From: a virus
DNA: 27,460 nucleotides
Reading direction: 5' to 3' (one strand)
IMG/VR virus record: IMGVR_UViG_3300044614_000502
Coordinates: 1-27,460 of that record
The notes below the pieces were generated by a model. The model ran no database searches and was not told the DNA's origin. It saw only the letters and a list, made by a program, of their open reading frames with translations. How positions within the stretch are numbered: position 1 is the stretch's first letter; the number at the start of each line of letters is the position of its first letter. Made by a program: the position numbers and the translations under genes. Below are positions 1-24,361 of the stretch, in pieces.

Positions 1-1700
1 GACTTATTACACCAGGAAATGTATCATCAGTAGATCGTATAGACTTCTCTAATGATTCTGTAACAGCACAGTCTAGAGGTTCATTAAGTTCAATAAACCG
101 AAGTTTATCAGCAACAGGAAACTCTAATTATGGTTGGTTTGGTGGTGGATTTCCTTCAGTATCAACGGTTAATCGTATAGATTTCTCTAATGATTCTGTA
201 ACAGCATCGACAAAAGGTTCATTAAATCTGGCAAAAGCAGATTTAGCATCAACTGGAAACTCTAATTATGCTTGGTTTGGTGGTGGGTCTATTACAACTC
301 CAGCAGTAGTATCAACAGTAGACCGTATAGATTTCTCAAATGATTCTGCAACAGCATCACCAAGAGGTTCGTTAAGTTTGGCAAGAGAAAGATTATCATC
401 GGTAGGAAATTCTAACTATGGTTGGTTTGGTGGTGGATATATTGCACCTACAGTTTATTCGACAGTAGATCGCATAGATTTTTCAAATGATTTTGCAATA
501 TTAACACCAAGAAGTCCATTAAGTTTGGCAAGACAAAAATCTTCAGCAGTAGGAAACTCTAACTATGGTTGGTTTGGTGGAGGTCTCATTCCTGGTCCAG
601 CATCAGTAGCAACAGTAGACCGTATAGATTTCTCTAATGATTCTGTAACTGCATCTGTAAGAGGTTCATTGGTGTCGGCAAAAGCAACTATGGCAGCAAC
701 AGGAAACTCTAATTATGGTTGGTTTGGTGGTGCAGAATCTCCAGCATTTGTATCAACAGTGGATCGTATTGATTTTTCAAATGACTTATTATCAGCATCA
801 CCAAGAGGTTTATTATTTACTGCAAGAGGTAATTTAGCAGCAACCTCAGGAGTTCTCAATATTCGCAGACAAAAAGCAGGGAATTTTGGTTGGTTTGGTG
901 GTGGATTATTACCAGCAGTATCAACAATAGACCGCATAAATTTCTCGAATGATTTATCAGCAGCATCACTAAGAGGTTCATTGAATGCATCCAGATATTA
1001 TATGGCAGCAACAGGAAACTCTAATTATGGTTGGTTTGGTGGTGGTGGTCCAGGATCAAAATCTACAGTAGAACGTATAGATTTTTCAAATGATTCTCCC
1101 ACAGCATCACAAAGAGGTCCATTGAGTTTAGCAAGAGATTTTTCAGCAGCAACAGGAAACTCTAATTATGGTTGGTTTGGTGGTGGAGATTCTCCAATAG
1201 GTAGAGTAGACCGTATAGATTTCTCGAATGATTTAGCAACAGCATCGGTAAGAACTGCATTTCCTGCTGCATCTGATGGTTTATCAGCAACAGGAAACTC
1301 TAATTATGGTTGGTTTGGTGGGGGACTTTCTGTTGTTGTGCGACGTATTGATTTTTCAAATGATTTAGCATCACCATCACCAAGAGGTTCATTTTTAGAA
1401 TCACGATTTAATGACGCAGCAACAGGAAACTCTAACTATGGTTGGTTTGGTGGTGGGTCTCCAAGTCATACGTCAGTTGTAGACCGTATAGATTTTGCAA
1501 ATGATTTAGCAGTTCCATTGAGAAGAGCAACATTATCTCTCGCAAAAGGTAGAATGGGAGCAACAGGAAACTCTAACTATGGTTGGTTTGGTGGTGGTTC
1601 TACTCCAACACGTATATCAACAGTAGACCGTATAGATTTCTCGAATGATTTAGCAACAATAGCAATAAGAAATCCATTAACTTTGGCAAGAGATAATTTA
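1..1700 (+). repeat. Tandem ~138-bp coding repeats, array 1 (12 units)
   Basis: Direct repeats of roughly 130-150 bp share near-identical blocks such as ggaaactctaattatggttg and gtagaccgtatagatttctc. Between the blocks the sequence varies in both length and content. The period is broken once, near 842-886. Strong DNA identity between units should favour recombination within this array and with the array at 3880-5670. Confidence 0.9.
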
Positions 1701-1727
1701 GATGCAACCTCCAACACAACAAGGTAA
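3..1727 (+). CDS. Kelch-like repeat protein, probable virion adhesin (5' partial)
   Basis: The reading frame is open from base 3, so the true start lies upstream; there is no internal start worth choosing. The protein is almost entirely tandem repeats of about 46 residues. Each has the aromatic-glycine core GNSNYGWFGGG, a variable 5-10 residue loop, then VDRIDFSND and a RGxLSxAR-like segment. This order (aromatic, GG doublet, variable loop, short strands) resembles kelch beta-propeller blades. Six repeats (the first cut by the edge) precede an irregular linker (about 842-886, SGVLNIRRQKAG), and six follow, ending in NTTR and a stop. Variation is concentrated in the loop after GGG, as expected for a binding face. 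The gene at 3476 has the same architecture, so the two look like paralogues. Role in host binding is inferred; an enzymatic role is not excluded. Confidence 0.85.
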   Translation, partial: LITPGNVSSVDRIDFSNDSVTAQSRGSLSSINRSLSATGNSNYGWFGGGFPSVSTVNRIDFSNDSVTASTKGSLNLAKADLASTGNSNYAWFGGGSITTPAVVSTVDRIDFSNDSATASPRGSLSLARERLSSVGNSNYGWFGGGYIAPTVYSTVDRIDFSNDFAILTPRSPLSLARQKSSAVGNSNYGWFGGGLIPGPASVATVDRIDFSNDSVTASVRGSLVSAKATMAATGNSNYGWFGGAESPAFVSTVDRIDFSNDLLSASPRGLLFTARGNLAATSGVLNIRRQKAGNFGWFGGGLLPAVSTIDRINFSNDLSAASLRGSLNASRYYMAATGNSNYGWFGGGGPGSKSTVERIDFSNDSPTASQRGPLSLARDFSAATGNSNYGWFGGGDSPIGRVDRIDFSNDLATASVRTAFPAASDGLSATGNSNYGWFGGGLSVVVRRIDFSNDLASPSPRGSFLESRFNDAATGNSNYGWFGGGSPSHTSVVDRIDFANDLAVPLRRATLSLAKGRMGATGNSNYGWFGGGSTPTRISTVDRIDFSNDLATIAIRNPLTLARDNLDATSNTTR

Positions 1728-3475: not shown

Positions 3476-5686
3476 ATGCCAGCAGGAGACGTATTTGGTC
3501 TTGATGGATTTTTTCTAAATGTATCAAATCCAGTTACGGTTTCTGCTGTAGATATTAATTCTACTGCTGCTGGTGCTGGTATTACAGTTGTAAGTGGAAC
3601 TTTAGATACTACTGCTGGTATTGCAACTCTGACTCTTTCTACTACTGCTGGTCTTTCTACTACACCTTTTTATACTGGTGTAAAGATTGCAGTTTCTGGT
3701 CTTGCAGATGCTGCTGGTGTTGCATATACTGGATATAATGGAAATTTTGTAGTCACAGGATTTGCAGGAACTACAACAGTTTCTTATGCAACTACTGGTT
3801 ATGTTGGTTCTGTGATTGCTGGTATTACCACAACTGGTTTGGTAATGTTAGTGACTGATACTACTGTTACAAATACAACATGGAGTAGTAATCAAACTCA
3901 CGGATGGTTTGGTGGTGGTTATACCACAGGACCAGCAATAGTATCAACAGTAGACCGTATAGATTTTTCTAATGATTCTGTAACAGCATCAGTTAGAGGT
4001 CCATTAAGTTCAGCAAGATATAGATTAGCAGCAACAGGAAACTCTAATTATGGTTGGTTCGGTGGTGGTGCTCCTGAGGCATCTCCAGCAGTATCAACAG
4101 TAGACCGTATAGATTTTTCTAATGATTCCTCAACAGCATCCGTTAGAGGTCCATTAAGTTCAACAAGACATAGATTAGCAGCAACAGGAAACTCTAACTA
4201 TGGTTGGTTTGGTGGTAGTACATCTCCAACATTTTCATCAGTAGTAGATCGTATAGATTTCTCTAATGATTCTTCAACGGCATCCGCAAGAGGTTCATTA
4301 AGTTTAGCAAAAGATTCTTTAGCAGCAACAGGAAACTCTAACTATGGTTGGTTTGGTGGTGGTGCTCCTGGACCAGTATCAGTAGTAGACCGTATAGATT
4401 TTTCCAATGATTCCTCAACAGCATCCGTTAGAGGTCCATTAAGTTCAGAAAGAAGTCGAATGGCAGCAACAGGAAACTCTAATTATGGTTGGTTTGGTGG
4501 TGGTTATACTCCAGCACCTCAAGCATCAATAGTAGACCGTATAGATTTTTCCAATGATTCTGCAACAGCATCAGTGAGAGGTCCATTGAGTCAAGAAAGA
4601 TATAATTTAACAGCAACAGGAAACTCTAACTATGGATGGTTTGGTGGTAAAACAGGAGAGACAACACCATTATCATCAGTAGATCGTATAGATTTCTCAA
4701 ATGATACTGGAACTGCAAATATAAGAGGTCCATTAAGTTCAGCAAAAGGTAGTGGGGGGGCAACATCAGGACAGGCAAGATCTCGCAGTACTACTATTCC
4801 AAAAACTGGAACTTATGGCTGGTTTGGTGGTGGTTTTATATCTCCAACATTTTCAGCAGTAGTAGATCGTATAGATTTCTCTAATGATTCTGCGACAGCA
4901 TCACCTAGAGGTTCATTGACTGCGGGAAGAGGATATTTAGCAGCAACAGGAAACTCTAACTATGGTTGGATTGGTGGTGGAAGAACTGCTGTACCAACAC
5001 CAGTATCAACAGTGGAACGTATAAATTTCTCTAATGATTCTGTAACTGCATCTGTGAGAAGTCCATTAACTATAGAAAGAGCCGTAACTGCAGCAGTAAG
5101 CAATTCTAATTATGGTTGGTTTGCTGGTGGTCTTAATCCTGGATCAACTCCGTCAACTATATCAAGAATAGATAGAATTAATTTTTCTAATGATACAAGA
5201 ATAAATATTAGAAATTCAAGTCCATTAATTCAAGTTAATGAAGCAGCAGTTGGAAACTTTAATTATGGTTGGTTTGCTAGTAATGGTGTTAATCGTTTGG
5301 ATTTTTCAAATGATGTAAATTCATTATCAACTAGAGGCAGTTTATCTCAAGGAAGAAGATCTTTAGCAGCAACAGGAAACTATGATTATGGATGGTTTGG
5401 TGGTGGGATTGTTATAGCAACAAGATCCACAAGAATAGACCGTATAAATTTCTCTAATGATTCCGTAGCAGCATCAGTTAGATCTTCATTTATTGCTGCA
5501 ACCGATGATTTAGCAGCATCAGGAAACTCTAACTATGGTTGGTTTGGTGGAGGATCTACTCCAACAACAGTAGCAACAGTAAACCGTTTAGATTTCTCTA
5601 ATGATTCAGTTCAAGCATCACCAAGAGGACCATTAAGTTTAGCGAGAAGTCAATTAGCAGCAACTGCCAATACACCAATAGGATAA
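3476..5686 (+). CDS. Kelch-like repeat protein with virion-type N-terminal domain
   Basis: The start is ATG 3476, with a good ribosome site (AGGAGA, 3466-3471). Residues 1-140 form a Ser/Thr/Gly-rich beta domain that looks like a phage structural or tail-fibre attachment domain. Twelve kelch-like repeats with the GNSNYGWFGGG core follow. Repeats 1-6 are regular. A break carrying SGQARSRSTTIPKTGTY (about 4765-4820) separates them from repeats 7-12, which are more divergent (IGGG, AGG and ASNG variants). The 6+6 layout suggests two six-bladed beta-propellers. The upstream gene has the same pattern, so this one shows what its missing N-terminus may look like. Likely a tail-fibre or adhesin protein; the receptor is unknown. 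Confidence 0.85.
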   Translation: MPAGDVFGLDGFFLNVSNPVTVSAVDINSTAAGAGITVVSGTLDTTAGIATLTLSTTAGLSTTPFYTGVKIAVSGLADAAGVAYTGYNGNFVVTGFAGTTTVSYATTGYVGSVIAGITTTGLVMLVTDTTVTNTTWSSNQTHGWFGGGYTTGPAIVSTVDRIDFSNDSVTASVRGPLSSARYRLAATGNSNYGWFGGGAPEASPAVSTVDRIDFSNDSSTASVRGPLSSTRHRLAATGNSNYGWFGGSTSPTFSSVVDRIDFSNDSSTASARGSLSLAKDSLAATGNSNYGWFGGGAPGPVSVVDRIDFSNDSSTASVRGPLSSERSRMAATGNSNYGWFGGGYTPAPQASIVDRIDFSNDSATASVRGPLSQERYNLTATGNSNYGWFGGKTGETTPLSSVDRIDFSNDTGTANIRGPLSSAKGSGGATSGQARSRSTTIPKTGTYGWFGGGFISPTFSAVVDRIDFSNDSATASPRGSLTAGRGYLAATGNSNYGWIGGGRTAVPTPVSTVERINFSNDSVTASVRSPLTIERAVTAAVSNSNYGWFAGGLNPGSTPSTISRIDRINFSNDTRINIRNSSPLIQVNEAAVGNFNYGWFASNGVNRLDFSNDVNSLSTRGSLSQGRRSLAATGNYDYGWFGGGIVIATRSTRIDRINFSNDSVAASVRSSFIAATDDLAASGNSNYGWFGGGSTPTTVATVNRLDFSNDSVQASPRGPLSLARSQLAATANTPIG
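3890..5670 (+). repeat. Tandem ~138-bp coding repeats, array 2 (12 units)
   Basis: Same repeat family as array 1. Units 1-6 are more uniform at the DNA level than units 8-11, where the RIDFSND core degrades to RLDFSND or RINFSND and the GG doublet is partly lost. The register break near 4765-4820 divides the array in half. Confidence 0.9.
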
Positions 5687-20341: not shown

Positions 20342-20773
20342 ATGTTTACCACTATTACTACTTGTCAAGGTTGTAGATGCGACATTCTTAATGAAAGAAT
20401 GACAAAAGGACGACTAAAAAAATGGTGTAGTAATGCTTGTAGACAGAAATGGCGTTATAAAAATGATGAAAATATCGTGAACAGAAACACTTATACCGAA
20501 CAAAAAGCAAGAGGTTATTCCAACAAATGGAAATCTCTTCAATATAAAGGTGGTAAGTGCCAATCTTGTGGAGAAAATAGACCAGCAACTCTATGCTTTC
20601 ATCATAGGGACCCTTCCCAAAAAGAATTAAAACTTGATGGGAGATCATTTGCGAATAGGAAATGGAAAACCATTAAAGAAGAAGTTGACAAATGTGATCT
20701 TCTTTGTCACAATTGTCATCATATATTACATTATGGTAATAGTTGGGAAGAGTTCTTACAAACGCTCGTCTAG
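20342..20773 (+). CDS. HNH homing endonuclease
   Basis: ATG 20342 is chosen (MFTTITTCQGCRC). A zinc finger (CQGCRCDIL, CSNACRQKW) leads to a classic HNH core: CQSCGENRPATLCFHHRDP, then KCDLLCHNCHHILHY, with paired CxxC metal sites. Such enzymes cut alleles lacking the insertion and spread among phages. The last 10 bp of the gene are the first 10 bp of the tRNA carrying anticodon CAU, so the gene abuts its likely insertion target. Confidence 0.9.
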   Translation: MFTTITTCQGCRCDILNERMTKGRLKKWCSNACRQKWRYKNDENIVNRNTYTEQKARGYSNKWKSLQYKGGKCQSCGENRPATLCFHHRDPSQKELKLDGRSFANRKWKTIKEEVDKCDLLCHNCHHILHYGNSWEEFLQTLV

Positions 20774-23553: not shown

Positions 23554-23574
23554 ACTATAGTTGTGGAGAGCACT

Positions 23575-24114
23575 ATGGTTAGTTGTATTTGTAAAAAATG
23601 TGGGTCGCAGTTTGAAAAAATTAAAAGTGAATATAATAGGAAAATTAAATTGGGAACTCCATTTTTTTGTAGTTTAAAATGCTCCAGCAGTTCTCATGAT
23701 ACTTCTTATTTGGATAGTTGGAGAAAAAGTGAAACTAACAAAAATTTTATAAAGCAATTTAGTGGAAGTGATAAAGATGACTATTCTTCTTTTAGAGAAA
23801 CTTTAAAAAAAGTTAGAAGCAGAAGTAAATCTAAAAATAGAGAATGTGATATTGATTTGAATTATCTAAAAGAAGTGTGGGAAATACAAGAAGGCAAATG
23901 TCCTTATTTAAAAAGAGAATTAGTTCTTCCTTTGACTGACCAATCTCACGATAAATCAAATCCAAATTTAGTTGCTAGTTTAGATAGGATTGATAGTTCA
24001 AAAGGATATGTAAAAGGAAATATACAATTTATTAGCACGACTTTAAATTTTGCTAAAAACAAATATGCTGAAGATGTTCTCTTGAATTTAATTGAAATGT
24101 GTGCTACTATATAA
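23575..24114 (+). CDS. HNH homing endonuclease (EGKCPY...LDRIDSSKGY type)
   Basis: ATG 23575 is chosen over GTG 23563 because GGAG at 23565 then acts as its ribosome site. The N-terminal zinc finger (CICKKCGSQF, FFCSLKCSS) and the core EGKCPYLKRELVLP with ASLDRIDSSKGYVKGNIQF and NFAKN match a phage HNH/endonuclease VII-like family. It sits between tRNA-Ala and the tmRNA, with only a few bases to the latter, suggesting insertion beside a conserved RNA gene. Confidence 0.88.
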   Translation: MVSCICKKCGSQFEKIKSEYNRKIKLGTPFFCSLKCSSSSHDTSYLDSWRKSETNKNFIKQFSGSDKDDYSSFRETLKKVRSRSKSKNRECDIDLNYLKEVWEIQEGKCPYLKRELVLPLTDQSHDKSNPNLVASLDRIDSSKGYVKGNIQFISTTLNFAKNKYAEDVLLNLIEMCATI

Positions 24115-24117
24115 AGA

Positions 24118-24336
24118 GTTCAAGAGGATAAACCTCTATATTCCAACACATCGGGGCAGTACCGATTATCTCCATTTCGTGGGGATAAAATAGAATCGAC
24201 TGGGATGTATGTATTATCTGTTGACGGAACAAACAAACAAACGTAAACAACATTGTTGCTTTCTCTCGTCAAACAGTTTCTGTTTGAACTAAACGAGTGA
24301 GGGGGTTATAAGTTTCCTTCTTACCCAAAACTTACA
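24118..24336 (+). ncRNA. ssrA: Permuted (two-piece) tmRNA, cyanobacterial type
   Basis: The acceptor piece comes first. A T-arm-like ATCGG-GGCAGTA-CCGAT (24150-24166) is followed at once by TATCTCC and discriminator A (24167-24174). After a 6-nt spacer (TTTCGT) the coding piece begins GGGGATA (24181-24187), which pairs with TATCTCC in 7 bp; the third pair is G-U, the alanine identity signal. The conserved tmRNA D-region ATCGACTGG follows. The tag frame starts at 24243 and reads VNNIVAFSRQTVSV then TGA (24285-24287). CTCGT/ACGAG and AAACAG/CTGTTT stems surround the stop. An H-type pseudoknot follows: GGGT 24303-24306 with ACCC 24323-24326, and TAAGT 24309-24313 with ACTTA 24330-24334. TGTT..GGAA (from 24220) may pair with TTCCAACA before the T-arm as P2. 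The 5' boundary is approximate. CCA is not encoded. Confidence 0.9.
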
Positions 24337-24361
24337 AGGAGGTGTAATGCCTCCTATTTTT
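24337..24361 (+). terminator. Rho-independent terminator of tmRNA
   Basis: Stem AGGAGG/CCTCCT (24337-24342, 24350-24355), loop TGTAATG, then ATTTTT. Confidence 0.85.

Follow-up and report, generated by a model that had tools for sequence, protein, structure and literature searches.

A viral permuted tmRNA gene with an alphaproteobacterial-type tRNA-like domain and a cyanobacterial-type tag

Permuted tmRNA genes in phages and the gene in the window

A standard tmRNA gene has one half of the tRNA-like domain at each of its ends. Permuted tmRNAs, including those of phages, are already known. In passages of one survey, tmRNA was reported in 402 of 18,146 phage genomes, with 53 of 133 unique structures called two-piece by ARAGORN; the legend of its tmRNA tree describes lineages as common to the associated phages, phage Melnitz excepted, and the tmRNA of AG-345-P14 is mentioned (PMC9004378). 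Excerpts of two other papers describe phage tmRNA of little more than a tRNA-like domain (PMC4131195, PMC11915505), and a further paper combines tmRNA of E. coli with that of M. tuberculosis in chimeras that are, judged by its title, engineered (PMC4236655). A natural hybrid tmRNA was not found among the matches listed in the open-licence literature. The permuted tmRNA genes of S-CAM3, S-CAM1, S-CRM01, S-SSM7 and AG-345-P14 (L185-L189 in our set) are not annotated as such in their records; the records of S-CAM3 and S-SSM7 show a hypothetical protein there instead, and that of AG-345-P14 is entirely unannotated.

The stretch of viral DNA that was analysed here (27,460 bases, hereafter the window) contains a gene in which the acceptor half precedes the coding half and a 7-bp acceptor stem carries G3-U70, which we take to be the identity element for alanyl-tRNA synthetase (Table 1). 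The original prediction had described a permuted tmRNA with the acceptor half first, and this was borne out. All the features it listed were located: the TATCTCC-A/GGGGATA pairing with its G-U third pair (seven of seven pairs) and 6-nt spacer, and, in the expected order, a 5-bp T-arm-like stem, a tag frame, an H-type pseudoknot and a terminator. Two Rfam models matched far above chance, RF01851 (cyano_tmRNA) at 24101-24353 with 79.8 bits (E 5e-20; cut-off 70) and RF04321 (tmRNA_permuted) at 24124-24287 with 55.3 bits (E 2e-8; cut-off 47). The tag-core pattern NNIVxFSRQ, which reads NNIVAFSRQ here, has a single match in the window, and 100 shuffles gave none. Of the checks suggested with the prediction, the search with Rfam tmRNA models was thus positive, whereas ARAGORN reported no tmRNA in the window.

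Table 1. Features of the tmRNA locus, in positions of the window.
Feature	Position	Strand	Basis
HNH / endonuclease VII-like gene, abutting the tmRNA leader	23563..24114	+	PHROG endonuclease matches
AT-rich element TGCTACTATATAAA	24102..24115	+	TACTATATA common to L009, L165 and L461
Whole permuted tmRNA gene, precursor and terminator	about 24118..24361	+	RF01851 match; leader start
Conserved leader GTTCAAGAGGAT	start 24118	+	alignment with relatives
Acceptor piece: 3' half of tRNA-like domain and 5' strands of helix 2	24118..24174	+	pairing, cofold, alignment; 5' end putative
T arm with alphaproteobacterial-type loop	24150..24166	+	ATCGG 24150-24154, GGCAGTA 24155-24161, CCGAT 24162-24166
Acceptor stem 3' strand TATCTCC and discriminator A	24167-24173; A24174	+	7/7 pairs with 24181-24187
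Intervening spacer, 6 nt	24175..24180	+	between acceptor strands
Acceptor stem 5' strand GGGGATA, G3-U70 retained	24181..24187	+	pairing; G-U is pair 3
D-loop analogue AAATAGAATCGAC, alphaproteobacterial-type	24188..24200	+	loop comparison, Rfam slice
ATCGACTGG	24195-24203	+	read in sequence
Helix 2, 3' strands	24201..24219	+	24201-24209 with 24137-24145 (inner block); 24214-24219 with 24126-24131
Tag reading frame VNNIVAFSRQTVSV, resume codon GTA, stop TGA	24243..24287	+	
Hairpin CAAACAG/CTGTTTG at tag end	24270..24286	+	compensatory pair in relatives
H-type pseudoknot AGGGGG/CCTTCT and TAAGTT/AACTTA	about 24300..24334	+	pair counts
Intrinsic terminator hairpin, then ATTTTT	24337..24355	+	terminator scan

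The two mature pieces are predicted by cofolding to form the acceptor stem, the T-stem and helix 2, where the inner block of helix 2 was supported by the cofold and both blocks by pair counts. The spacer, which is 6 nt long in all 12 rows of the window's family (group A, below), would be removed on maturation. The terminator hairpin was called on both strands, giving two sites against a shuffled mean of 0.1. The AT-rich element ahead of the leader is a possible extended -10 promoter; a sigma-70 scan made no promoter call at 24102..24115.

Types of the tRNA-like and mRNA-like domains

Based on Rfam, the two domains of the gene were found to differ in type. For the tRNA-like slice 24136-24214, alpha_tmRNA (RF01849) was the best model of the clan with 29.2 bits (E 1.2e-7), a score obtained on 79 bases that lies below the whole-gene gathering score of 50; tmRNA_permuted, which is outside the clan, gave 31.5 bits on the same slice. 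The alpha_tmRNA consensus shows the loop GGCgGUA at this place. For the remainder, 24201-24361, cyano_tmRNA was best with 38.7 bits (E 1e-9). As a control, the equivalent tRNA-like slice of L025, a relative with an ordinary T-loop, gave 61.1 bits with cyano_tmRNA. The earlier label "cyanobacterial type" is therefore right for the tag and the mRNA-like part, whereas the tRNA-like domain is of the alphaproteobacterial type.

The loops show the same division. Within the phylum of a Methylococcales record (Pseudomonadota), RF04321 was above its cut-off in 157 of 398 genomes, and the best 30 of those loci had the T-loops GGCGGUA (25), GGCAGUA (3), GGCAGAA (1) and UUCGAUU (1). GGCRGUA or GGCAGAA was thus present in 29 of the 30 top-scoring Pseudomonadota loci; the alphaproteobacterial label of the GGCRGUA loops is read from the alpha_tmRNA consensus. 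On the cyanobacterial side, a sample drawn from genome contigs by the tag-core pattern held 120 loci among the matches listed, some of them not cyanobacteria and 15 without structure, and UUCGAUU was found in 104 of the 105 structures detected, with one odd loop. The GGCAGNA pattern, with spacers of 2-32 nt, was found in none of 386 genomes of the cyanobacterial phylum. The window has GGCAGUA and AGAAUCGAC rather than the UUCGAUU T-loop and the D-loop of the RF01851 type.

Two scans of IMG/VR were made for GGCAGNA in the permuted frame, and among the matches listed 246 of 255 passed the stem-pairing tests, 200 of them distinct. The original prediction had called the T-loop GGCAGTA non-canonical; instead it is the normal loop of another lineage, and a degenerate T-loop was rejected since hundreds of IMG/VR loci have this loop, as do Pseudomonadota genomes. 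The T-loop and D-loop also change together. Among the matches listed, G at loop position 2 goes with AG in the D-loop in 260 of 265 alpha-type or group A rows, and U at this position with GG in 120 of 121 other rows, a co-variation that is partly built in because 102 cyanobacterial rows among the 121 were pre-filtered for GG. In the unfiltered set, GG was present in the D-loop of all 104 UUCGAUU structures. We assume that loop position 2 and the D-loop dinucleotide are positions 55 and 18 of the tRNA elbow. A third loop combination, T-loop UGCGAUU with D-loop UAGAAUCGAC, was seen in L150, L154 and similar tmRNAs of phage contigs.

Relatives, tag endings and the phages that carry the gene

The tag-core scan of IMG/VR gave 28 contigs. 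Rfam found a tmRNA in 27; in the remaining one, L022, the tag-core match is a coincidence. Seven of the 28 carry the window's tmRNA sequence, and L021 and L026 nearly so. Five contigs (L004, L006, L020, L024 and L025; group B) have the window's mRNA-like domain with an ordinary T-loop. Scanning for the exact T arm gave 24 contigs, namely 23 of the window's family and L169, and scanning with the window's D-loop gave 44 stretches that included many chance matches and other tmRNAs. The family, filled out by these two scans, constitutes group A, of which 11 variants were aligned. The window and L025 have in common an exact run of 127 nt from 24245, with unlike T arms and D-loops, and their downstream proteins are 67% identical; the methyltransferases of the window and L006 are 94% identical. 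By these identities, the window and these group B members are related phages. Other RNA elements on these contigs were a group I intron (L010:882-1071) and an abiF RNA (L026:4809-4845).

L169 is a contig with short stretches that resemble cyanophages. Its cassette, running from about TCCAACACATCGG to ATCGACTGGG, is almost unchanged, and its tag end is like that of S-CRM01, whose own T-loop is of the cyanobacterial type. One tRNA-like cassette thus occurs on two mRNA-like backgrounds. L169 was the only other mRNA-like background found, the exact T-arm scan of IMG/VR included, and no donor of the cassette was found. S-SRM01 and B23, which have short stretches in common with L169, gave no permuted tmRNA. 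Neither the whole gene nor its coding part had a blastn match in INPHARED, so that no cultured phage with the chimera was found there, and the tRNA-like part gave chance-level matches only. L198 (about 552-862, minus strand) combines an alpha-type T-loop with a cyanobacterial-like tag, ANKIVKFERTAVAV, and is possibly another hybrid. It falls among alpha phages in the tRNA-like tree, and megablast of its contig stretch against INPHARED gave no match; as evidence on the donor it was set aside as too divergent.

ARAGORN missed the tmRNA of six group A loci and of L169, which makes seven of seven cassette loci in addition to the window, and in the same run it reported tmRNA in three of three group B loci and 11 of 11 others, L198 included. 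At gathering scores Rfam found the window-type group A genes, L461 with only 47.9 bits against 47, and no tmRNA in L169. Surveys may for these reasons undercount such genes.

Trees were made separately for the two domains. The tRNA-like tree held 76 rows out of 386 found, limited per group, over 49 columns, and its bootstrap was not settled; group A was placed with the alpha rows (100/100) and group B with the cyanobacterial rows, where one Pseudomonadota row, L431, is also found. In the mRNA-like tree (37 rows, 177 columns) groups A and B formed one clade (100/100), and a wider group with five other cyanophage rows had 87/99. In AU tests on the tRNA-like domain, with L029 left out, forcing A with B cost 34 log units (p-AU 0.043) and forcing A with all cyanobacterial-side rows gave p-AU 0.063. 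With 49 columns, the case for a chimera rests on the loops and Rfam more than on the tree tests. The two trees do not support the direct capture of a host gene, which had been proposed with the original prediction: the mRNA-like domain groups with cyanophage tmRNAs and the tRNA-like domain with the alpha type.

The structure is conserved in the 11 variants, in which 96.6% of the cells are paired, as compared to at most 52% in slid controls. No pair of the acceptor stem or T-stem is broken, and the T-stem is invariant. Acceptor pair 5 and one tag-hairpin pair are changed on both sides, in 10 cells against a shuffled mean of 1.9 (none of 500 shuffles as high); counted as pairs, there are 2 against 0.9 in shuffles, with 36 of 500 as high. 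The number of further pair types equals that of the shuffles (11 vs 11.0). Two helix-2 pairs fail in 5 of the 11 variants, one tag-hairpin pair in one and one pseudoknot pair in six, perhaps through the alignment. Overall the covariation support is thin. The resume codon is GTA in the window and GCA in the other 10 variants.

The tag frame of 14 codons is open and ends with a stop in all 25 cassette loci, the window included, and the tag ends in Val in each of them (TALV 13, TVSV 10, TSLV 1, and TAVAV 1, the last in L169). The window's tag ends in ...TVSV and lacks the Ala-Ala of cyanobacterial tmRNA, and group B tags end in TALV or TVSV. Host tags, found by a tag core that did not include the ending, ended in Ala-Ala in 106 of 106 cases among the matches listed, mostly as ...APVAA. 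The 27 phage tmRNAs of the tag-core scan end in AA (10), VA (2) or V (15). The endings of the cassette and group B tags look like a host ending from which the two final alanines were lost; for phage-tagged proteins the endings would be NNIVAFSRQTALV or TVSV. Ala-Ala is described as the most important element for E. coli ClpXP in an excerpt of PMC7652416. Tags ending in Val may spare proteins in cyanobacteria, though cyanobacterial proteases might accept them anyway. The mRNA-like domain and tag of the window are not those of RF01849. A rough tag search was done on 205 distinct IMG/VR sequences with alpha-type loops among the matches listed, group A loci included. A candidate tag of the form AN[DN]N...AA was present in 82 of them, and 108 had some candidate that ends in AA, which makes an alpha-type tag the common partner of the alpha-type loop.

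Megablast with the first 24 kb of the window gave 107 phage records, of which 100 bear the name Synechococcus phage, Cyanophage or Prochlorococcus phage, with a query coverage of at most 3% among the matches listed. The window, which has nine tRNAs, is a distant relative of T4-like cyanophages. Among 21 distinct records searched, mostly fragments, a 123-kb and a 247-kb relative each had two Photo_RC (photosystem reaction-centre) genes and the others none; the major capsid protein gp23 of the 247-kb relative (the record of L461) is 75% identical to that of Synechococcus phage S-B05. Their gene content indicates that these phages are cyanophages. SmpB was not found in the 21 records, many of them fragments, and a phage-borne SmpB partner was dropped, so that host SmpB would have to serve. 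Two long repeat proteins of the window (378-1727 and 3476-5686) have units like RIDFSND...GNSNYGWFGGG, and the second matched only PHROGs of unknown function.

The endonuclease gene next to the tmRNA leader had tblastn matches in 10 of 35 loci searched, some of them incomplete, and was rejected as a constant companion; it is a possible agent of local gene conversion. Another HNH gene, at 20342-20773, is 87% identical to L169 8994-9425 and is located beside tRNA genes in both; together with a further HNH gene in the corresponding stretch of S-SRM01, this suggests that such genes move through tRNA arrays.

Origin of the gene and comparison with known systems

We consider it likely that the gene encodes a functional cyanophage two-piece tmRNA that arose by recombination between lineages, in which an alpha-type tRNA-like domain was placed inside a cyanophage tmRNA, and that it acts in rescue with a tag lacking a degron. 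The exchanged block would comprise the T arm, acceptor stem, D-loop and spacer, with the leader, pseudoknot, terminator and cyanobacterial-type tag kept. As circular permutation puts both tRNA-like halves side by side, one short exchange could swap the whole domain; about 60-90 nt would hold the T arm, acceptor stem and D-loop, three parts that have to fit one another. Crossovers may have taken place in the conserved GTTCAAGAGGAT before the block, which has one or two differences in group B, and in TTATCTGTTGACGG after it, and homing endonucleases in the tRNA array may help such exchange. We infer that the precursor is cut at the spacer and receives CCA, that host AlaRS charges the RNA through G3-U70, and that host SmpB and EF-Tu bring it to stalled ribosomes. 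A tag without terminal Ala-Ala would then be added, by which ribosomes would be freed and the products not efficiently sent to ClpXP. Rescue during infection is plausible.

Three other explanations were weighed against recombination. A decoy that binds host SmpB or ribosomes and blocks host trans-translation would fit a tRNA-like domain from outside the host lineage and the failure to find SmpB in the 21 records. Passages of PMC4131195 describe a tmRNA cut down to the tRNA-like domain, that of phage DS6A (a similar molecule was tested), as inhibiting tmRNA, perhaps by titrating SmpB. We nevertheless regard a decoy as unlikely, because 25 of 25 cassette loci retain the 14-codon tag frame and its stop, for which a decoy would have no use. 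The same intact frames, together with the unbroken acceptor and T-stem pairs and the change on both sides of acceptor pair 5, make it very improbable that the gene is a decaying, non-functional relic, for which the low Rfam score, the failure of ARAGORN, the GTA resume codon of the window against GCA in the other 10 variants, and the helix-2 and pseudoknot pairs that fail in relatives could be cited.

The alpha-like loops could also have evolved by convergence within a cyanophage tmRNA, without any recombination. In favour of this, the AU tests (p 0.043 and 0.063) do not decide the matter, and the co-variation of D-loop and T-loop positions means that one change could drive the other. However, the T-loop agrees with the alpha form at all seven bases and the D-loop connector at most of its positions, and the same cassette is present on two different mRNA-like backgrounds, so we find convergence improbable, if somewhat less so than a relic. 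Recombination between lineages hence remains our preferred explanation.

A broader proposal, which we make only tentatively, is that the tRNA-like domain is a movable cassette with which phages rebuild a virus-specific rescue RNA from a foreign aminoacylation and SmpB-binding module and a degron-less tag. Tagged viral proteins might in this way be spared from ClpXP and ribosomes freed for viral translation, with a possible escape from host factors that act on host tmRNA. The gene is a naturally occurring hybrid of an RNA that nearly all bacteria have, present in 24 virus contigs of a lineage that infects photosynthetic bacteria. It suggests that tmRNA halves are exchangeable between deep lineages and that phages separate ribosome rescue from proteolysis, and it gives circular permutation an evolutionary consequence that can be tested, namely that a domain can be swapped in a single short exchange.

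In comparison to the cyanobacterial two-piece tmRNA (RF01851), the window has the same gene order, tag core NNIVxFSRQ and mRNA-like domain, but GGCAGUA and AGAAUCGAC where RF01851 has UUCGAUU and GGYUUCGAC, and a tag without Ala-Ala. With the alphaproteobacterial permuted tmRNA (RF01849) it has the T-loop and D-loop type in common, whereas its tag and mRNA-like domain are not of the alpha type. The tmRNAs of S-CAM1, S-CAM3, S-CRM01, S-SSM7 and AG-345-P14 are likewise phage-borne and permuted with a cyanobacterial-like tag core, but these have cyanobacterial-type T-loops and other tag endings, and the window gene had no blastn match in INPHARED. Mycobacteriophage DS6A also has a phage-altered tmRNA, which in the passages of PMC4131195 is little beyond a tRNA-like domain and has no tag. 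The two-piece tmRNA of phage Melnitz and the pelagimyophages is a marine phage tmRNA that, like that of the window, does not match the host lineage; in the excerpt of PMC9004378, however, the whole Melnitz gene is described as alpha-related and not as a chimera of domains.
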